Source: an uncultured Oscillibacter sp. (GTDB taxonomy: Bacteria > Bacillota > Clostridia > Oscillospirales > Oscillospiraceae). Taken from it: 44,185 bases of DNA. Below, one piece after another: positions 3,122-36,564 of this stretch. Under the pieces are notes generated by a model. The model made no database searches, was not told the origin of the DNA, and was given only the letters and a program-made list of their open reading frames with translations. Position 1 is the stretch's first letter, and each line of letters opens with the position of its first letter. A program made the translations under genes and the position numbers. Location: NCBI GenBank assembly GCA_947577075.1, contig CANPTW010000021.1, positions 1 to 44,185 on the forward strand. Direction: 5' to 3'.

Positions 3122-4975
3122 TCAGTCATTCCGCTCCAGCCGGAAGCCGTGCCCGGGGCAGGCGGCCTCCACGGCCTCCATCCGGTCCCCGTCCACCAGG
3201 ACAACGTCCAGGGCGGGCAGCTCCGCCAGGAGGGAAAAGTCCCCGATGGGGACCTCCGTCAGGTGCAGCCAGTTCAGGTTCTCCAGCTCTTGGAGGGGCG
3301 TCAGGTCCGACACCTCGCTCTTCCCCAGCGACAGGGTGAGCAGGCGCCTCATCCCCCCGATTCCGTCCAGCCGCTCCAGGCCGGAGTAGACGCTCAGGAC
3401 CTCCAGCCGCTCCAGGCCGGAGAGGGGCGTCAGGTCCGGGCAGGTGATGTTCCCGATTTTCAGCACCCGGAGGCGGCCCAGGGAGGCGGCGGCGTCCAGC
3501 GCCGCCCTTGGCGGCTCCCAGAGGCTGAGGGTTTCCAGACCCGTCTGGACGGCCAGGGGCGACCAGTCCCCGTCCCGGGGGAGGGTGCGCCCCAGGCTCA
3601 ATTCCCGGAGGGCCAGCCCGTTTAGGAAGCCCAGGTTTTCCGGGGCGGCGGGGCCGGTAACGGAGCCGTCCAGGTTCAAAAGCCGCAGCCCGGTGAGGCC
3701 GGAGAGCGCCCCGCAGTCGGCGACGGGGTTGCCGCCCAGGTACAGGGACTCCAGCCCCGTCATGCCCGCCAGGGGAGTGAGGTCGGAAATCCGGTTTTCG
3801 CACAGGGCCAGGGCGGCGAGGGGCAGCCCCTCCAGGGGCGACAGGTCCTCGATCTCCTGGCGGCAGAGGTACAGCTCCCGCAGGTTGGGCATCCGGGAGA
3901 GCAGGGAGAGGTCCGAGAGGTCCCCCCAGGGCGCGTCGCCCTGATAGTCCCGGCCGATGTAACAGGCGATGCGGTAATCGAAGGCCTCTTCCCGGGAGAA
4001 GGGAACCGCCCCCACCACCGCCAGCCGCTCGACCTTTTCCAGGTCCCGGTAAGCGATGGGGCCGGAGGGCCGGTCCAGCTCCGCCCGCACCGCCAGCTCC
4101 AGGCTCTGGGAGGCAAAGGACACCTCCCGGCTCCCCGTGCCCCGGGTCCAGAGGGCCGCCGCCAGCAGGAGCGGAAACGCCGCCAGGAGCAGCCATTTCC
4201 CCCGGCTCCCCCGGTGGGACAGCGCCGCCGAGAAGGAGGCGGCGTCCGGATACCGGTCCTCCGGCGCGAAGGCCGCGGCCTTTTTCAGTGTCCTCCGCAG
4301 ATGGAGGGGAACCTGGGCGGCGCAGTCCAGGCTGCCGGGGTCGTACTCTCCCGTCAGCAGCCAGATCAGCGTCATGCCCAGGCCGAAGAGGTCCGTCCGG
4401 CAGTCCGTCTGGGCGTAGCCGTACTGCTCCGGCGCGGCGGTGGACCGGGTGCCCAAATGGCGGGTGTCCTGGTCCCGCTCCGGCTTGTACCGCCGGGCGA
4501 TGCCAAAGTCGATGAGCCCCACGCCGCCGTCCGGGAGAAGGATGACGTTTTCCGGCTTGACGTCCCGGTGGATAATGGGCGGGTCCAGGCCGTGGAGCGC
4601 CCCCAGCAGGGCGCAGAGCTTTCGGCCGATCTCCGCGCAGCGCTTGGCCCCGCAGCCGCCGGTCCGGCGGCGGAACTGCTCCAGGGTCTCGCCGGGCAGA
4701 TAGGACCGGAGGAGGTAGTCCGTCCCGTCCTCCCGGAAATAGTCCACGGGGGCGGGAACCGCGCCGGGCAGCTGCCGGGCCAGGCGGTTCAGGAGCCGAA
4801 ATTCCTCCGCCAGGTCCTCCGTCCCCTCCAGGGAGAGCTTCAGGACGAAGGGCTCCCCGTCGGCCCGGCGGCGCATCCGCCAGACGCTCCGCCCCTCCCG
4901 GGAGGAGAGGCAGAGCTCCGCCTCATAGGCCAGGGAGAGCCGCTCCGGCAGGCCCTCCAGGGGCGCGCCGGTCAA
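3122..4975 (-). CDS. Membrane Ser/Thr protein kinase with extracellular leucine-rich repeats
   Basis: A 617-residue Hanks-type kinase with a single membrane span. The kinase domain covers about residues 10-255: candidate ATP-binding Lys46 (FVLKLSLE), catalytic loop HRDVKPEN (136-143, Asp138), DFG at 156-158 and APEQY at 181-185. The glycine loop is poorly conserved (LSSREGRS). A basic stretch and a transmembrane helix (about 260-277) lead to an outside region with a run of leucine-rich repeats (LSPLEGLPLAALALCENRISDLTPLAGMTG type) from about 350 to the end. This is the layout of a receptor kinase with LRRs as sensor. The gene starts with TTG at 4975, which overlaps the TGA of the upstream HTH gene (TTGA), so translation is probably coupled. 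Substrate and ligand are unknown; the HTH partner is a candidate target. Confidence 0.88.
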   Translation of the reverse strand: MTGAPLEGLPERLSLAYEAELCLSSREGRSVWRMRRRADGEPFVLKLSLEGTEDLAEEFRLLNRLARQLPGAVPAPVDYFREDGTDYLLRSYLPGETLEQFRRRTGGCGAKRCAEIGRKLCALLGALHGLDPPIIHRDVKPENVILLPDGGVGLIDFGIARRYKPERDQDTRHLGTRSTAAPEQYGYAQTDCRTDLFGLGMTLIWLLTGEYDPGSLDCAAQVPLHLRRTLKKAAAFAPEDRYPDAASFSAALSHRGSRGKWLLLAAFPLLLAAALWTRGTGSREVSFASQSLELAVRAELDRPSGPIAYRDLEKVERLAVVGAVPFSREEAFDYRIACYIGRDYQGDAPWGDLSDLSLLSRMPNLRELYLCRQEIEDLSPLEGLPLAALALCENRISDLTPLAGMTGLESLYLGGNPVADCGALSGLTGLRLLNLDGSVTGPAAPENLGFLNGLALRELSLGRTLPRDGDWSPLAVQTGLETLSLWEPPRAALDAAASLGRLRVLKIGNITCPDLTPLSGLERLEVLSVYSGLERLDGIGGMRRLLTLSLGKSEVSDLTPLQELENLNWLHLTEVPIGDFSLLAELPALDVVLVDGDRMEAVEAACPGHGFRLERND

Positions 4976-5453: not shown

Positions 5454-5833
5454 TGGTGAAGGACGCAAACGGCGCCGGTCATCCGGCGGCCGAGGGAAAA
5501 ATCCGAACCGCTCAGGCGTGCGGGCGCCGCTCTCTTTTTAAGAAGCTGTACCAATCGGGGGCGGCACGCAGGCTGACCCGCCATTCTGTGCCGTTTCGCC
5601 GCCCTGCGCGCCCTTCTCCTCTCCCCCTTCAGGGGAGGGAGTGCCGGGGCTGCGCCCGGCGAATGCGGACGGCGGTAAGCCTGCCCCGGCGCTTTCCCCG
5701 CCCGAGGATATGGTGCAAATGCTCCTTGCCCTTTCCGCCGTTGTATGTTAAAAATTTTCTGTGCGGCAAAATTGGGCCCTGTTTGAAGAATGTCAAAGCG
5801 CCCAAACGGCGGACCCTTTTCCGCTGCCCTGCG
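5454..5833. other. Non-coding stretch upstream of the repeat mosaic
   Basis: I see no gene here. Open frames in this stretch lack ribosome-binding sites and have unnatural composition. The segment 5760-5830 carries scraps resembling the repeat family to its right (CCTGTTTGAAGAATG), so it may be decayed repeat. Confidence 0.5.
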
Positions 5834-5999
5834 CTAGAGGGTGTCTTCAAACTCCCGAAACGCGGACCGGCGGCATCTTTTTCCGCCATGCCGCGTTGCT
5901 TCGGCTTGAAATCCGTCAGGATTCCCGCGCCAAAGCGCCTTGCCTGGCGAAAAAATCTCCCCCGGTCCGTCACGCCGGGAATTGGAAGACACCCTCTAG
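5834..5999. repeat. Interspersed repeat copy A (MITE-like, about 166 bp)
   Basis: The ends are inverted: CTAGAGGGTGTCTTC on the left, and the right end read on the other strand gives CTAGAGGGTGTCTTCC. The interior carries the core TTGAAATCCGTCAGGATTCC followed by GCCTTGCCTGGCGAAAAAATC. The same ends and core recur at 37175-37362 in reverse orientation, and the core alone recurs in the adjacent copy. No transposase is encoded. CTAG at both extremities could be a 4-bp target duplication of the kind IS5-type elements make, or part of the inverted repeat. Confidence 0.75.
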
Positions 6000-6157
6000 A
6001 GTCTGTTTGAAAACCGTCAGGACGCCGTCTTGGGGCGTCTTTTCCGCCGGGACTGCGTTGATTTGACTTGAAATCCGTCAGGATTCCTGCGTCAAATCCG
6101 CCTTGCCTGGCAAAAAATCCGTCCGAATCCGGCATTTCTCAGGTTTTAAAACAGGCT
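5999..6157. repeat. Interspersed repeat copy C, abutting copy A
   Basis: The ends are again inverted: TCTGTTTGAAAACC on the left, with the right end (GGTTTTAAAACAGG) its imperfect complement. It contains the same core as copy A (CTTGAAATCCGTCAGGATTCC, then CGCCTTGCCTGGCAAAAAATC) and a CGTCTTGGGGCGTC block also present in the copy at 37 kb. The A/C junction is repeated in decayed form at 9531-9565. Confidence 0.65.
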
Positions 6158-6166
6158 CCGGCGTTT

Positions 6167-6251
6167 CTTGCAGATAGGCGGCCCGCCTGCGAAAATCTGC
6201 CTTGTTCGGCAAAAAAGTCTCTCGCCGTTGGGCATTTTGCCTATTTGCAAG
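6167..6251. repeat. Interspersed repeat copy D, shorter and diverged
   Basis: It has inverted ends CTTGCAGATAGGC (6167-6179) and GCCTATTTGCAAG (6239-6251), enclosing TGCCTTGTTCGGCAAAAAAGTCTC, a diverged form of the family core. CTCTCGCCGTTGGGCATT also matches the reversed copy at 9.3 kb. It ends just before the ECF sigma promoter. Confidence 0.6.
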
Positions 6252-6277
6252 CAGGGCCTAAAAACTTTTTCCCGATG

Positions 6278-6306
6278 TGTAATACATCCCCCCTCCCCGC
6301 CGTTTA
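6278..6306 (+). promoter_or_regulatory. Candidate ECF-sigma promoter of the sigma gene
   Basis: TGTAAT (6278-6283), 17 bases, then CGTTTA (6301-6306), 44 bases before the sigma ATG. The identical hexamers with identical spacing occur upstream of the stalk-protein gene at 8187-8215, and both spacers contain CCCTCCCC. The CGTT-type -10 is typical of ECF promoters, and self-activation of ECF sigma genes is common, so this is probably the sigma factor's own target. Confidence 0.7.
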
Positions 6307-6350
6307 CTGAGTGAATCGGCGCCAATTCAACACAAAGGAGGCGAGCGTTT

Positions 6351-6884
6351 ATGCTTGCAATCTGCCTCGCCATGCTGGAGACTGAACAGGACCAGCGGCG
6401 GTTCACGCGGCTCTTTGAGGCTCACGAGAAAAAAATCTACGCGGTGGCCCTCCGCATCCTGGGAAACCCGGACAAGGCGGAGGACGCCGCCCAGCAAACC
6501 TGGCTCAAGCTGGTGCAGAACTGGGATCGGGTGTCCGCCTTGCCCTGGCGGGAGACGGAGGGCTACGTGGTCACAGTGGCCAAAAACTGCGCTCTGGACG
6601 TCCTTCGCTCGGAGCGGAAAACCGTCGCCTTCCCCGAGGACTGGGACCCGCCCGCCCAGGACGAGCGCCAGGAGGAGTACGACTACCTCGTCTCCCTCAT
6701 CCGCTCCCTGCCGGAGAATTACCGGCGGATTCTGGAGCTCAAACTCGTGGAAGAGGAGCCCAACCAGGAGATCGCCCGTCGGCTGGGCCTCAAGGAGTCC
6801 ACCGTGGGCGTCCGGGTGATGCGGGGCCGGGCCATGCTGAGAGAACGCCTGGAAAAGGAGGGATATACCTATGACGCAGTTTGA
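6351..6884 (+). CDS. ECF-type RNA polymerase sigma factor
   Basis: A 177-residue sigma-70 family protein of the extracytoplasmic-function type. Region 2 spans about residues 18-92 (FTRLFEAHEKKIYAVALRILGNPDKAEDAAQQTWLKL) and region 4 about 113-168 (LIRSLPENYRRILELKLVEEEPNQEIARRLGLKESTVGVRVMRGRAML). Region 3 is absent, as expected for ECF factors. The start is fixed by AAAGGAGG (6334-6341), 9 bases before ATG. The last 14 bases overlap the next gene, which encodes a membrane protein in the position of an anti-sigma factor. It probably directs transcription from its own promoter and from the stalk gene at 8281. The inducing signal is unknown. Confidence 0.92.
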   Translation: MLAICLAMLETEQDQRRFTRLFEAHEKKIYAVALRILGNPDKAEDAAQQTWLKLVQNWDRVSALPWRETEGYVVTVAKNCALDVLRSERKTVAFPEDWDPPAQDERQEEYDYLVSLIRSLPENYRRILELKLVEEEPNQEIARRLGLKESTVGVRVMRGRAMLRERLEKEGYTYDAV

Positions 6885-8157
6885 CGGCCTCTTGCGCCGG
6901 GCGCTGATGGACGCGAACCTGGCGCAGTATGAACGGGCCCTTCAAAGCGTGGAGGCCCGGGAGCCGGACTTCTCCCCCGGGTATCTCCGGGAGCGGATGC
7001 GGGTGCTGGCGGACCCCCAGGGCTGGGCGCGGCGGCGGTCCGGGGGCCGAAGGCGGCTGGACTGGCGGCTGATTGCCATTGTGGCGGCGCTGCTGCTCCT
7101 CTCCGCCTGCGCCTACGCCGTGGTCACGGGGCAGTTCTCCCAGTGGTTCCCCCGGCTGGGGGTGGACCCGAAGGCCCCGGAGGTGTCCGAGGAGGTGCTG
7201 AATCGCACGGGCACGGCCATTGAACAGAGCCAAACCGTGGGAGACGCCACGGTGACCCTCCACGCCGCCGTGTGGGACGGGAGCGACGTGTGGCTGTCCT
7301 TTGCCATCGAGAGCCCCGACATTCCGGAGGAGGTCCGGCAGTACACCCCCATCTACGGGGGAGACTGCCGCCTGCTGCTGCGGGACGACCAGTCGGAGGA
7401 GTATGCGAGAGGCATGCTGAAGGAACACTACGCCTTTACCGGCGAGGCCCCGTCTCCGGAGCAGCAGGTGGCGGACCTCCAGGACAGGCTGGAAATGGGG
7501 ATGATTATGCTGGGGATTACGCACGCCGGCGAACGGGAGGGGAACGTCCTCACCTTCCAGATCAACGCGATGCTGATTTCCCGCTGGTTCACGGAGACGA
7601 AGCGGCCGGAGCTGACCCTGCACCTGGAAAATCTCGCCACCTATGCGGACGGAAAGGGCGAGAGCATTCTCGACGAAAACGGATACGCCCAGAACCCCGG
7701 GCCGGGCACGGTCTTTCTCGAGGGGCCCTTTGACCTGACCTTTACCCTGGAGGAACCCATCCTGCCTATCAGCTACGAGGGGGCCGACGTCCGAGTGACG
7801 GTCATGGACGTCCCCCTCCACTTCACGGGGTTTAAGCTCTCCGCCCTAGAGCTGACCGCATTCTTTGACGACCCGACGGAGCCGCTGCTGCCCAAGCCCG
7901 GCGAGACCCTGACCCCGGAGCAGGAGAGCAAACTCCGAAGAATGATGGAGGATACCTTCCTCGTGTCTGGCGAGAGCGTGCGGGGCCTCTGGACGGAGGA
8001 CGGGAACTACGTGGACCTCACAAGTTCGGGATACAGCGGGGGCAGCGACGCCATAAGCCGGAACTACCCCTATCCCATCGACCCCGCCACGGTGACGGCG
8101 GTGGACATCGCCGGAATCCGGGTGGAGCTGAGCGAGCTGGAGCGTATGGACGAGTAA
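6871..8157 (+). CDS. Membrane anti-sigma-like protein (DUF4179-like)
   Basis: A 428-residue single-span membrane protein. Residues 1-65 are cytoplasmic and basic towards the membrane, a helix at about 66-86 (LIAIVAALLLLSACAYAVV) crosses it, and about 340 residues lie outside. The layout (short inside domain, one span, large outside domain) and a start inside the 3' end of the ECF sigma gene match the DUF4179-type anti-sigma families of Clostridia. No classical zinc anti-sigma motif (HxxxCxxC) is visible in the inside domain, so the assignment rests on context and topology. The ligand of the outside domain is unknown. No clear terminator follows; an AT-rich stretch leads into a second ECF-like promoter. 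Confidence 0.75.
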   Translation: MTQFDGLLRRALMDANLAQYERALQSVEAREPDFSPGYLRERMRVLADPQGWARRRSGGRRRLDWRLIAIVAALLLLSACAYAVVTGQFSQWFPRLGVDPKAPEVSEEVLNRTGTAIEQSQTVGDATVTLHAAVWDGSDVWLSFAIESPDIPEEVRQYTPIYGGDCRLLLRDDQSEEYARGMLKEHYAFTGEAPSPEQQVADLQDRLEMGMIMLGITHAGEREGNVLTFQINAMLISRWFTETKRPELTLHLENLATYADGKGESILDENGYAQNPGPGTVFLEGPFDLTFTLEEPILPISYEGADVRVTVMDVPLHFTGFKLSALELTAFFDDPTEPLLPKPGETLTPEQESKLRRMMEDTFLVSGESVRGLWTEDGNYVDLTSSGYSGGSDAISRNYPYPIDPATVTAVDIAGIRVELSELERMDE

Positions 8158-8186
8158 AAAAATATTTTCAAAATTTTTGAAAATCA

Positions 8187-8215
8187 TGTAATGCGAAGCC
8201 CTCCCCCTCCGTTTA
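8187..8215 (+). promoter_or_regulatory. Candidate ECF-sigma promoter of the stalk-protein gene
   Basis: TGTAAT (8187-8192), 17 bases, then CGTTTA (8210-8215), which is followed by C as in the copy upstream of the sigma gene. The start codon of the downstream gene is 65 bases further. This makes the stalk-protein gene a likely member of the sigma factor's regulon. Confidence 0.68.
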
Positions 8216-8280
8216 CCAGATAGAACGGGGCGGGAGGGCGTTCCCCCTCCCGCCGGAAAAACGAAAGGAAGGTCATCACC

Positions 8281-9210
8281 ATGAAAAAACGCATCGCATC
8301 CTTTGCCGGAGGCTTTATTGCCGCCCTGGCCCTGTCCCTCTGCCTGACCACCGCCCTGGCGGCCTCGGGCAAGGTGAGCTACAACTTCGCCAACGTCTCC
8401 CTGGACGGCGCGCCGAAAATCACGGCGGGACAGGATATCACCGCCGCCAACGGGCAGAAGGTCCCCGGCTCCATTCTCTACACCGACGCGGCGGGCGGGA
8501 AGACCAACTATCTGCCCATCCGCACCATCAGCGAGCTGCTGGGCACGGAGATCGGCTATGACTCCGCCACCAAGACCGTGCTTTTAGGGCAGCAGCCCGC
8601 CAAGCCGGCGCCCGAAACCCAGCCTGCCGCCGATGAGAATGTCATCGACCTCCGCACGCCGAAAACGGTGCCTGAAAACGCCCGCCGGGGCGATCCGGAG
8701 CTCATCAAGAGCCGGGGCGGCACGATCCTGCCGGACGACGACCCGGAGTCATACCGGGGCAACGACAAGATGTACAGGGACAAAAACGGGGAACTCCGTT
8801 GCGAGTATAAGGTGGGAAACGAGGAGACTATCAGCGACCTGCCCGCGAAGGAGAAGCAGCTGGCTGCTCTGGTGAACGGGGACTACCCTAAAAACAGCAA
8901 GGGAGAGAGCTATGGAAACGTCCTGTTGGCAGAGTATGTGGGCTACTGGCCGGACCTGGAGCATCTGGCCGCTTATCCGCCGGAGGGCCGTCCGGCGGGG
9001 TACATCCGCGAATCTGAGCTGCAAAAGGGCGGCGAGGCCCTGCGGGGACTGTCGAAGGAGGCGTGCCCCCATGAGTACAAAATCCCCCTGTATGACTCCG
9101 AGGGAAACGTTATCGGAGAATATAAGGTGGGCTGCCAGGGGCATTATGATACGGAAGGGCTGACCTTGGAGGAGGCCCGGGAGGTCATCATGCGGGGCCC
9201 GACCTGGTAA
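8281..9210 (+). CDS. Secreted stalk-domain (copper amine oxidase N-like) protein
   Basis: A 309-residue exported protein. Residues 1-28 form a signal peptide (MKKRIASF..LTTALAA). A domain of the copper-amine-oxidase N-terminal or stalk type follows (about residues 30-103; TNYLPIRTISELLGTEIGYDSATKTVLLG), a module common in Clostridia surface proteins and not itself enzymatic. The remainder (about 110-309) is hydrophilic and rich in Asp, Glu and Lys, with no family I recognise. It contains a repeated EYKVG motif (CEYKVGNE near 178 and EYKVGCQG near 280), suggesting an internal duplication. ATG is preceded by AAAGGAAGG. The upstream ECF-like promoter suggests it is an output of the sigma/anti-sigma pair. 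Confidence 0.8.
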   Translation: MKKRIASFAGGFIAALALSLCLTTALAASGKVSYNFANVSLDGAPKITAGQDITAANGQKVPGSILYTDAAGGKTNYLPIRTISELLGTEIGYDSATKTVLLGQQPAKPAPETQPAADENVIDLRTPKTVPENARRGDPELIKSRGGTILPDDDPESYRGNDKMYRDKNGELRCEYKVGNEETISDLPAKEKQLAALVNGDYPKNSKGESYGNVLLAEYVGYWPDLEHLAAYPPEGRPAGYIRESELQKGGEALRGLSKEACPHEYKIPLYDSEGNVIGEYKVGCQGHYDTEGLTLEEAREVIMRGPTW

Positions 9211-9598
9211 CCCATCGCCAGGCCGCCGGAGCGGGAGGATTTCAGAATTTCGGCCGCCCGGAGCGGGACGTAGGTCCTGTCTGAAAATTGTCGGAATACC
9301 CAATGGTGAGAGATTTTTTCGCCGGTTAAGACAAATTTTTTGGGCGGGCGGCCCCCCGGCAAGGAAGGAACGCGCAGGAATCCCGGCGGATTTCAAGGGT
9401 TTTTGACGCAGTCCGGGCAAACAACTTCCCGTCAAGTGCGTGCCGGCGCCGATTGGCTCGGCTTCTTAACGCATCCATATCGTTTCATGCTCCCATTTTT
9501 CTGCCGTTCCCTCTTTGCCCAGCTTTAATCGGAAGACACCCTCCAGCGCCTGCTTTCAAACCGGCCTGAATCCGGCCGCATGTATGCTCGCCCAAAAA
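9211..9598. repeat. Degenerate, reversed composite of the interspersed repeats (about 9270-9565)
   Basis: This gap holds no gene. Read on the minus strand, 9270-9385 contains TTGAAATCC.CGGGATTCCTGCGC, a CCTTGCCGG block and GGCGAAAAAATCTCTCACC.TTGGG, all matching copies A, C and D. At 9531-9565 GGAAGACACCCTC joined to CTGCTTTCAAACC copies the junction between A and C at 5.99-6.02 kb. The match is interrupted by unrelated bases, so it appears to be an old or rearranged insertion. Confidence 0.55.
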
Positions 9599-9640
9599 GA
9601 AAGCACCCACTTATGGACAACCTCCCAAGTGGGTGCTTTC
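9599..9640 (-). terminator. Intrinsic terminator after spoIVB
   Basis: A perfect 14-bp stem (9599-9612 with 9627-9640) and 14-base loop. On the minus strand it is followed by TTTTT and lies 25 bases after the spoIVB stop. Confidence 0.88.
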
Positions 9641-9664
9641 GCTGCTTAAAACTTGTTTGCGCTG

Positions 9665-10678
9665 TTAACTTTCGCAGTCCCCGGCCGCTTCCAGCATAGT
9701 TTCAATCAAAATTCCATACCCTTTGGTCGGGTCGTTGAGGAGGACATGGGTCACGGCTCCCACAATTTGGCCATTTTGCAGAATCGGACTACCCGACATT
9801 CCCTGCACGATGCCTCCGGTGGCTTCCAACAGCGCCGGGTCCGTAACGGAGAGAATCAAATCCCGTCCGTCCGCCGAGCCGGAGGCCACCCGCAGGATTT
9901 CAATCGCGTACTCCCTGACCTCGTCCCCCCGGACGTTGGCCCGGACGACGGCGGGGCCCGGCAGCGCCGTGCCTGTCGGAACCGCCTCCGCTTCTGTGGG
10001 AGCCGCTTCCAGCCGGCCGAAAATGCCGCTGCTGGTATTGGCGTACAGCGGCCCCAGGTCCCGGGTCAGGTCAAAATCTCCCCGCAGCTCTCCGGCGGCT
10101 CCCGCCTCGCCCCGCTTTACCGCCTTCACGGTGGAGGGCAGAATGGAACCGTTGGAGAAGGGCATCAGCAGCGCCGTGTCCGTGTCCGTCACGCCGTGGC
10201 CCAGAGCTCCGAAGACGCCGGTGGCGGGATCATACCAGGTCATGGTGCCGATTCCCGCCATGCTGTCCCGAACCCAGGCGCCGATGCAGTAAACGCCCTG
10301 ATCGTTCCGGGAGGGTTCCACCGACAGGGTCATATTGTCCCCGTCCCGGCTGATCTGGAGGTCCGAGGCAGTCCCGCCGCTCCTTTGCAGCAGGGACTGA
10401 AACTGCTCCGTGGAGGTCACGGCGTCGCCGCCGCATTTGATAATGACGTCCCCGGTGCGTAGGCCGCACTCCTTGGCGGGCGTTCCCCCTTCCGTCAGCT
10501 TCACCACTACAACGCCCCGGGAAAACAGCTTGATGCCCACCGTGTGGCCCACCGGGACCAGCATTCGGGGCTCTGCCGCCCTTACCGTCACGCTTCCCCC
10601 GGCGCACAGCAAAAACGCAAGCGCCAGCGCCGCCCCGGCGCCCAGCGCCCGCTTCGCGAATTTTGAAGGTCCATACAA
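9665..10678 (-). CDS. spoIVB: SpoIVB-type peptidase (S55), sporulation signalling protease
   Basis: A 337-residue forespore-secreted serine protease. In Bacillus, SpoIVB cleaves SpoIVFA and so releases pro-sigma-K processing across the forespore membranes. Residues about 8-36 form a signal/anchor segment, about 50-125 a PDZ domain (GIKLFSRGVVVVKLTEGGTPAKECGLRTGDVI), and the rest the S55 domain. His161 (GALGHG), Asp280 and Ser295 (GMSGSP) fit the known catalytic triad; the Asp-to-Ser spacing of 15 equals that of the Bacillus enzyme (363/378). The frame is open 158 codons further upstream, but AAAGGGG lies 9 bases before TTG at 10678 and the signal segment begins there. It sits alone, downstream of ftsZ, behind its own terminator. 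The gene is strong evidence for an endospore former. Confidence 0.93.
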   Translation of the reverse strand: MYGPSKFAKRALGAGAALALAFLLCAGGSVTVRAAEPRMLVPVGHTVGIKLFSRGVVVVKLTEGGTPAKECGLRTGDVIIKCGGDAVTSTEQFQSLLQRSGGTASDLQISRDGDNMTLSVEPSRNDQGVYCIGAWVRDSMAGIGTMTWYDPATGVFGALGHGVTDTDTALLMPFSNGSILPSTVKAVKRGEAGAAGELRGDFDLTRDLGPLYANTSSGIFGRLEAAPTEAEAVPTGTALPGPAVVRANVRGDEVREYAIEILRVASGSADGRDLILSVTDPALLEATGGIVQGMSGSPILQNGQIVGAVTHVLLNDPTKGYGILIETMLEAAGDCES

Positions 10679-10692
10679 AAAAATCACCCCTT

Positions 10693-10728
10693 TCCGGCCT
10701 GCCAAAAGGAGCTTTTCGGCAGGCCGGA
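10693..10728 (-). other. Long hairpin abutting the spoIVB ribosome-binding site
   Basis: An 11-bp stem (TCCGGCCTGCC at 10693-10703 with its complement 10718-10728) continues inward as AAAAG/CTTTT (10704-10708 with 10712-10716). On the minus strand it ends next to AAAGGGG, the spoIVB ribosome-binding site, which is followed by T7. It could affect translation or act as an imperfect terminator. Confidence 0.6.
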
Positions 10729-11133
10729 CAAGCTCTTCTCGTTCTGAAAAACCTGCGGCCGGGGAAAGAAGCGCCCCTTCCGGGCCCTCTTTCACGCCGG
10801 TTTCCTTCCCGTCTCCAATGCGCTTTCGGCAGACTTCTTTTCGTGTCAAACGCCGCTTCCGGCCTGACGACAGCCGGCACAGCTGAAAAGGCTCCTCCTC
10901 TTCGGCCCGGCGCCGCGAACCGCCCAAGCGGTTTTCCGCACCCGGCCTTATAAGGAAGCGCACAGGCGCTCCGCGCCCCGGCAAACCCGCGGTCCGCCGG
11001 TTGAAAAAGGGCGCCGTTTGCTTCTTTTCACCTGCGCCGACTATATCATTTGCCGAAACCGGGAATTCAGCACAAGCAAAAAGCGGCAGCGCCGCCATGG
11101 CGGCACTTCCCTGTTCCGGCGGCGCAAGGCATG
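10729..11133. other. Non-coding spacer upstream of spoIVB
   Basis: No gene is supported. A TGAATT (11064-11069) and TATAGT (11040-11045) pair on the minus strand, 18 bases apart, could be a promoter for spoIVB with a leader of about 360 nt. Its -35 resembles forespore-sigma sites, but the match is weak. Confidence 0.35.
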
Positions 11134-11164
11134 AAAAAGACCCCGGAGACAAACATCTCCAGGG
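11134..11164 (-). terminator. Intrinsic terminator after ftsZ
   Basis: A stem of CCCTGGAGA with TCTCCGGGG (minus strand, one imperfect pair) is followed by TCTTTTT. It lies about 60 bases past the ftsZ stop and separates ftsZ from spoIVB. Confidence 0.85.
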
Positions 11165-36281: not shown

Positions 36282-36564
36282 GAAAACGCCCCCGACTCCT
36301 TCGAGTCAGGGGCGTGTCGATCAACACGCGGTACCACCCTGGTTTAGCCGCCGGTTGCCCAACGGCCCTCACAGCCTCTAACAAGGCTTCGGCCAATAAC
36401 GAGGCCGGCCGTCCCCGCCTAAACCGGAAAACCGATCTCAGCGGAGCCGCTCGAGGGCCAGTGACATTCCTCCCCTCCGCGCCGCCTCGCAGCATCCGGC
36501 GGCTCTCTGAAGCGTGTCTGGAAAGAATTTTCTCCCTGTCATCGCGTTTGCACATGTTCCGTTG
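36282..36564 (-). promoter_or_regulatory. T-box leader of the leucine operon
   Basis: The T-box core AGGGTGGTACCGCG is at 36327-36340 (minus strand), followed by a terminator whose stem (ACGCCCCTGACTC with its partner, about 36286-36315) ends in TTTTC. Stem I begins near ATGACAGGGAG and has an apical GCCGCC..GGCGGC hairpin. A candidate specifier CUG (36458-36460) lies just before the G-CCC helix, matching leucine. The core and terminator are clear; the specifier assignment is by eye. Confidence 0.92.

Follow-up and report, generated by a model that had tools for sequence, protein, structure and literature searches.

Does an ECF-type sigma factor of an uncultured Oscillibacter sp. activate its own gene together with that of a single exported protein? 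The question is raised by a three-gene locus on the + strand of contig CANPTW010000021.1 (positions 1 to 44,185; this whole stretch of 44,185 nt is called the window), which encodes an ECF-type sigma factor, a DUF4179 membrane anti-sigma factor and an exported stalk-like protein. The sequence TGTAAT-N17-CGTTTA stands before the first and before the third gene, and the predicted promoters and the genes are arranged as follows.

6278-6283, + strand: -35 hexamer TGTAAT of the sigma operon promoter, kept in relatives
6284-6300, + strand: C-rich 17-nt spacer ACATCCCCCCTCCCCGC of the sigma promoter
6301-6306, + strand: -10 hexamer CGTTTA of the sigma operon promoter
6351-6884, + strand: ECF-type sigma factor, 177 aa (Pfam, Sigma70 region 2 and region 4_2, both above the cut-off)
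6871-8157, + strand: anti-sigma factor, 428 aa, one membrane helix, DUF4179 ectodomain (Pfam), overlapping the sigma gene by 14 nt
8187-8192, + strand: -35 hexamer TGTAAT of the target promoter
8193-8209, + strand: spacer GCGAAGCCCTCCCCCTC of the target promoter, better conserved than the -35 over 20 target promoters
8210-8215, + strand: -10 hexamer CGTTTA of the target promoter
8281-9210, + strand: exported stalk-like protein, 309 aa, signal peptide (sub-threshold PF07833 and homologues)

The two sites were found at 6278-6306 and 8187-8215 with an equal spacing of 17 nt, exactly where a preliminary description of this DNA had placed them, and the sequence that it had noticed in both spacers is indeed shared (CCCTCCCC). 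Its wording of two identical ECF-type promoters has to be narrowed. The hexamers are identical, but the spacers differ (ACATCCCCCCTCCCCGC versus GCGAAGCCCTCCCCCTC). Similarly, the CGT expected in an ECF -10 element is present at both sites (CGTTTA), but the -35 element, TGTAAT in both cases, lacks the canonical AAC that was an early ECF hallmark (PMC8103513). According to the same source, the definition was later narrowed to the domain layout, and therefore an AAC-free -35 does not exclude ECF membership. The distance from the end of the motif is 44 nt to the sigma gene and 65 nt to the stalk-like gene.

The sigma protein has the layout of the ECF group (group IV), with the sigma2 and sigma4 domains only. 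PF04542 was found at residues 21-90 and PF08281 at residues 112-163 of 177, both above the Pfam cut-off, and the linker between them comprises about 21 residues by the Pfam borders, well within the limit of fewer than 50 residues that is described as an ECF hallmark (PMC8103513). With regard to a place in the ECF30 group, 25 of 75 NCBIfam matches were inspected, among which the superfamily model TIGR02937 alone exceeded its cut-off. The 14-nt overlap suggests that the sigma and anti-sigma genes are carried on one mRNA.

For the anti-sigma protein, PF13786 (DUF4179) was barely above the cut-off (30.2 versus 30.1 bits), and the protein was assigned to the fold of a solved DUF4179 member, 3fbq, the anti-sigma factor BAS1627 of Bacillus anthracis, with which it shares 9% identity over the aligned part. 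A search for solved-structure relatives by sequence gave none that was convincing, neither for the anti-sigma protein (best E 0.59) nor for the stalk-like protein (0.07). RsiV is cleaved by signal peptidase once it has bound its signal; in the window's protein, the membrane helix is followed by A-C-A and then by Q-F-S-Q-W-F. At its outer end, LSAC resembles a lipobox (7099-7110, residues 77-80). A lipobox pattern occurs at that place in 101 of 104 homologues with a QFxxWF-type motif, among 120 homologues listed, and anti-sigma proteins of another ectodomain type, e.g., at locus L124, are devoid of the cysteine. The LSAC of the anti-sigma protein might point to lipoprotein-type processing.

The upstream flank of the three genes contains an imperfect inverted repeat with arms of 58 nt (5834-5999), and further imperfect inverted pairs between 5538-6091 and 9372-9469 flank the locus; together they are possibly a mobile or repeat element around it. 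A SpoIVB-type S55 peptidase with a PDZ domain adjoins the locus (9668-11152, - strand; NCBIfam 297.0, just under the cut-off of 305.25), and a protein kinase domain followed by leucine-rich repeats is encoded in one protein at 3125-4975 (- strand). Rfam yielded no match at the locus at the gathering threshold; a T-box leader above the gathering score is present at 36305-36551 (- strand).

The frequency of the motif was quantified in the window and in the genome from which it comes. The exact form occurs twice in the window and in none of 100 dinucleotide-preserving shuffles. With up to three mismatches, 10 sites were found compared to 5.05 expected, and 3 of the 100 shuffles reached 10; this loose form is weak, so that the exact form carries the signal. 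In the whole assembly (2,792,091 bases in 94 contigs, 83% complete), the exact motif is restricted to the two places at this locus. One mismatch added five places, compared to four control matches for the reversed pattern, and by eye the leader, ribosome site and signal peptide of a real site were absent at all five, which resembled chance matches. The proposal that the motif could be used to find the rest of the regulon was therefore not borne out in this genome, as the exact scan returned no further member from the 83% that is covered. A promoter of the TTGACA/TATAAT type was not found within 5700-9700, which says little, because shuffles give only 0.9. The same genome contains three more DUF4179 matches (on contigs C18, C39 and C41 of G000), one of them above the Pfam cut-off, and each adjoins a sigma region-4 match; the TGTAAT/CGTTTA promoter was not seen in the regions upstream at these three loci.

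A scan of genome contigs with the sigma protein yielded 41 loci, 33 of which (L117-L149) are close relatives, labeled Oscillibacter or Oscillospiraceae with the one exception of L147 (Lachnospiraceae). Together with the window, and without L146, they gave 33 readable regions upstream of sigma genes. The exact motif preceded 14 of these genes, L128 had a version with a 16-nt spacer, and C/T/A-GTTTA was present at the expected place in 30 regions, the exceptions being L138, L145, and L147. Across 61 genomes of the genus, the exact motif was matched 18 times in 12 genomes (reversed control: 4), 11 times before the sigma gene, six times before the downstream output gene, and once elsewhere, within a frame on the opposite strand (G198:C22). 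Many matches in coding sequence had been named beforehand as a result that would speak against promoters, but 17 of the 18 matches in these genomes fell at this locus.

For the second site, a target-type pattern was used that included the C-rich spacer and allowed up to two mismatches. It gave 36 matches in 19 of 86 genomes and none for the reversed control. Eleven matches lay at sigma genes (including the broken one of L148), 20 at sigma-linked outputs, and five elsewhere. Four of these five precede exported DUF4179/DUF4367-like proteins and have the same kind of leader, and the fifth, in G214, is apparently due to chance. The view that all stray output promoters are unlinked turned out to be partly wrong: the site on G203:C1 comes after an anti-sigma gene that looks intact, and the 6.8-kb contig yielded no sigma gene, and the site at G196:C1:50364 follows an anti-sigma remnant. 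Among the relatives, only G230 has output-type promoters without a sigma or anti-sigma gene in about 3 kb around them (two sites on G230:C60 and one on G230:C32), and these are flanked by DUF4367-like genes. The presence of promoters without a nearby sigma gene makes it likely that, in at least one relative, the regulon extends beyond the sigma locus. Conversely, 8 of 29 loci had no convincing target promoter, with weak rule matches at L127, L138, and L144 not counted. At L148 (G196:C1) and L149, the reading of the sigma gene ends early, yet a TGTGGT-type promoter is found upstream; in G196, another TGTGGT promoter lies about 28 kb from L148, after an anti-sigma remnant and before an exported DUF4179-like gene.

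Outside the genus, G078 has a sigma gene, a DUF4179 anti-sigma gene and then genes for two proteins, and the promoter pair is absent, which indicates that the neighborhood is older than the promoter. No TGTAAT...CGTTTA was found in 11 upstream regions of sigma relatives from other genera (L054-L058, L063 twice, L066, L069-L071), and a loose scan of these regions with TG[T/A]AA-N15-18-CGT gave one match, at L071. Promoters were possibly missed here, because the open frame, and no proven start, served as the reference for cutting out the regions. By eye, several of the upstream regions from other genera show a TATAAT-like sequence instead.

Paralogous systems have other -35 classes, namely C/T-GGGAT, TGCAAT, and TGTGGT, all combined with the same CGTTTA. 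The pattern GGGATAY-N15-CGTTTA gave 25 matches in 17 of 86 genomes (reversed control: 5), 17 at sigma genes or linked outputs, three in G230 (two before DUF4367-like genes and one at a contig end), and five elsewhere. At the more distant paralogues L195-L197 and L199, judged by eye, an upstream palindrome that resembles a terminator seems to include the GGGAT -35 in its 3′ arm.

Within one locus, the -35 hexamers tend to be alike at both promoters. Between the two members of each of 21 pairs, agreement was found at 50 of the 63 bases from -34 to -32 (shuffle mean 34.9, p 5.5e-5), and 11 hexamers were identical (4.09 after shuffling, p 2.5e-5). These p values are a guide only, because the shuffling of pairs leaves kinship in, and in many cases the hexamers and the -34 bases had to be called manually. 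With the same reservation, the 14 pairs of the T-34 (TGTAAT) clade alone gave p values of 0.032 (bases) and 0.039 (hexamers), and the 12 distinct combinations gave 0.0083 and 0.0019. The 21 pairs include misfits; 18 hand-picked pairs had given a stronger result. TGTAAT at the self promoter is combined with TGAAAT at the target promoter at L118, L119, L125, and L129 (the latter with an 18-nt spacer), the reverse holds for L139, and the hexamers are mismatched at L126 and L140; an altered -10, TGTTTA, is common to both sites of L126. At L117 and L133, both promoters share an unusual hexamer, yet the self-type and target-type spacers are kept, which argues against recent copying of the whole promoter. 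Overall, the -35 class follows the sigma clade, and paralogous loci of one assembly (e.g., L124 and L131, on JAAVYM contigs) have different, internally matched pairs.

Next, we considered which part of the sigma factor could read the variable -35 base, and one codon was singled out.

6810-6812, + strand: codon of V154, opposite S172 of sigmaE and T171 of SigW (placed from the T-x-x-x-R-x-x-R spacing and by aligning the protein without gaps to another ECF sigma factor of solved structure)

In SigW and sigmaE, the residue equivalent to V154 contacts base -34, and the residue equivalent to G153 contacts G'-31, which is base paired with -31 (PMC6713349); the spacing of the recognition-helix residues is the same in the window's sigma factor. 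These two sigma factors have S/T and K/R at the two positions and a purine at -34, whereas the window's sigma factor has V and G and its promoters have T-34 and T-31. The residue expected to face -34 is likewise S/T in the GGGAT systems. For 38 of 40 sigma factors, with manually called -34 bases, residue and base agreed: 20 of the 21 with S/T have a purine at -34, and 18 of the 19 with a different residue have a pyrimidine, the exceptions being L117 (S with C-34) and L139 (V with A-34). To place these changes, a tree of 44 sigma rows was built without the helix columns; it omits L146 (contig end), L148 and L149 (sigma reading ends early), and L122b (lacking a promoter of its own), and it includes L138, L143, L147, and L173b without a -34 base. 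L203-L205 had escaped the search pattern. On the tree, the correlation is mainly one switch (two changes each for residue and base), with possible additional co-changes at L117, L123b, and L133, and it is thus weak as independent evidence. A test for co-evolution of residue and base had at most two independent pairs and yielded no significance. From the structural comparison, we hypothesize that the residue at the V154 position sets the preference for base -34.

The matched promoter classes bear on the possibility that both sites are promoters of another ECF sigma factor of the cell, so that the genes would be co-regulated without self-activation. The genome offers candidates, as it has 33 matches to the sigma region-4 family, often in frames of ECF size, and overlap between ECF regulons is possible, as described for SigM, SigW, and SigX of B. 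subtilis in a section of PMC6056542. On the other side, 11 of the 12 genomes with the exact motif hold a sigma factor that matches that of the window at E 1e-91 or better, and the twelfth, G198, has one stray match. In addition, the -35 classes track the sigma clade, down to the differing pairs within one assembly. Control by another sigma factor is therefore improbable.

The anatomy of the promoters and leaders was compared in an alignment of 26 self promoters and 20 target promoters, which adds three features to the window.

6260-6270, + strand: A/T tract AAAAACTTTTT upstream of the sigma promoter, possibly acting like an UP element (26 aligned self promoters are A/T-rich in the equally distant columns)
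8158-8186, + strand: A/T-rich stretch upstream of the target promoter (A/T-rich columns in 20 aligned target promoters)
8229-8254, + strand: leader hairpin GGCGGGAGGG-CGTTCC-CCCTCCCGCC close to where the target mRNA is predicted to begin (fold prediction)

The mean information per column was 1.38 (self) and 1.35 bits (target) for the -35, 1.13 and 1.55 bits for the spacer, and 1.92 and 1.95 bits for the -10, and A/T-rich columns lie upstream in both alignments. Features common to the target promoters are the richness of the spacer in C, the A/T tracts and the hairpin in the leader, and the target leaders show the consensus CAGAACGG 5 nt past the -10. According to the fold predictions, most target leaders form a GC-rich hairpin upstream of the ribosome site. 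The leader in the window folds with -23.9 kcal/mol (z -2.6), and the z values of single leaders ranged from -3.7 to -0.1 (25 of 26 leaders; L140 was not extractable), with L126, L144, and L145 folding poorly. Covariation in the hairpin is modest, with 3 of 7 consensus pairs changed on both sides in 21 leaders. L127 and L141 have retained the hairpin without the promoter, and thus, the predicted structure probably protects the output message.

The high conservation of the target spacer, which exceeds that of the -35, would also be expected if the shared sequence served not as a sigma promoter but as the binding site of a regulator (repressor or activator), whose operator would comprise the C-rich spacer and the inverted repeat downstream. 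By eye, the target spacer is partly complementary to the first arm of the leader. At L139, however, both leader arms have changed together and the spacer is unchanged, so that spacer and leader seem to be conserved for different reasons. This also speaks against the idea that the spacer is one arm of a conserved DNA inverted repeat, which is disfavored as the main cause of its conservation. The nearly fixed spacing of 17 nt, the CGTTTA -10, and the upstream A/T tracts fit a promoter, and an operator is very unlikely. A chance resemblance of two 12-base matches is hardly credible: loose matching is not far above the chance rate, but the exact form never arose in the shuffles and is conserved across relatives.

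A self-activating sigma factor with one exported output, as first proposed from the window, is thus the best reading of the locus, because the promoter pair is kept in relatives and its -35 hexamers co-vary. As judged from comparative sequence analysis, we assign a probability of about 0.86 to a self-activating ECF sigma/membrane anti-sigma pair with one adjacent output gene.

The output itself is less uniform than the promoters. PF07833 scored 19.1 bits on the window's protein, below the cut-off of 24.2, and precomputed PF07833 annotations exist for many of the 120 homologues listed, so that "stalk-like" denotes a resemblance only. Residues of about 191-284 recur as repeats in two proteins of G078, from another genus. 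After 29 anti-sigma genes, types being assigned partly by eye, the next exported product was stalk-like in 12 cases (the window included), DUF4179-type in eight, DUF4367-type in four, and distantly stalk-like in two (L144 and L145; phmmer 1e-5 and 3e-9), and three had none adjacent (L128, L135, and L138). DUF4367 was above the cut-off at L124 and L139 and in the stalk-like fusion of L143, and L126 and L142 were assigned by resemblance; the DUF4179-type is defined by BLAST to anti-sigma ectodomains, with Pfam below the cut-off in the three proteins tested. Both types are devoid of the sigma-binding N-terminus and have a signal peptide (by eye). Their identity to anti-sigma ectodomains reaches 70%, and the better match is often to the ectodomain of another locus than to that of their own. 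The stalk protein had been put forward as the best clue to what the anti-sigma protein senses. This does not hold in general, because the output slot of relatives often contains DUF4179- or DUF4367-type domains related to the anti-sigma sensors. In the open-licence literature, we found no published work on ECF sigma factors in Oscillibacter, on a link between DUF4367 and anti-sigma factors, or on decoy ectodomains.

The self-activating circuit could operate as follows. In the resting state, the DUF4179 protein would hold the sigma factor by its cytoplasmic N-terminus, as suggested by the gene order and by characterized DUF4179 anti-sigma factors. A signal at the ectodomain would lead to loss of the anti-sigma factor, probably by membrane-side proteolysis in analogy to RsiV. 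The free sigma factor would then read the site at 6278 to yield more sigma and anti-sigma factor and the site at 8187 to yield the exported stalk-like protein. The target mRNA would start with the predicted GC-rich hairpin, probably a stabilizing element.

In being an ECF system with apparent autoregulation, the locus belongs to a known kind. SigV-RsiV of B. subtilis also comprises an ECF sigma factor and a membrane anti-sigma factor with DUF4179 next to the membrane (the relevant parts of PMC6066255 and PMC8844934), but there the signal is lysozyme, whereas the window's locus has a -35 without AAC and a stalk-like output. The SigI-RsgI systems of cellulolytic clostridia, as far as they are described in the same section of PMC6056542, likewise comprise several similar, autoregulated sigma factors per genome with the specificity in the -35, and their promoters were sought upstream of the sigma genes; in contrast, SigI has sigmaI-C instead of sigma4, and the outputs are cellulosome genes. 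What makes the present system a worthwhile variant is the -35 without AAC, the matching of promoter classes, and the outputs built from sensor-type domains.

Oscillibacter-type bacteria are common gut bacteria. More tentatively, and with the odds against the full picture, they may contain mutually insulated ECF switches, in which the -35 co-evolves with one recognition-helix residue, and the outputs may be either released DUF4179/DUF4367 sensor domains without the sigma-binding part or a stalk-like protein; the shed protein could buffer or compete for the signal. The results suggest that a conserved ECF promoter can do without AAC in its -35. With several systems per genome and one candidate residue, these bacteria offer a compact natural collection in which to test how cross-talk among paralogous ECF sigma factors is avoided, and the tendency of the two promoters of each system to have the same -35 variant is useful for such a study. 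The results also suggest that sensor domains of anti-sigma factors have been reused as exported outputs and, if so, the signals of DUF4179 and DUF4367 would be easier to seek.
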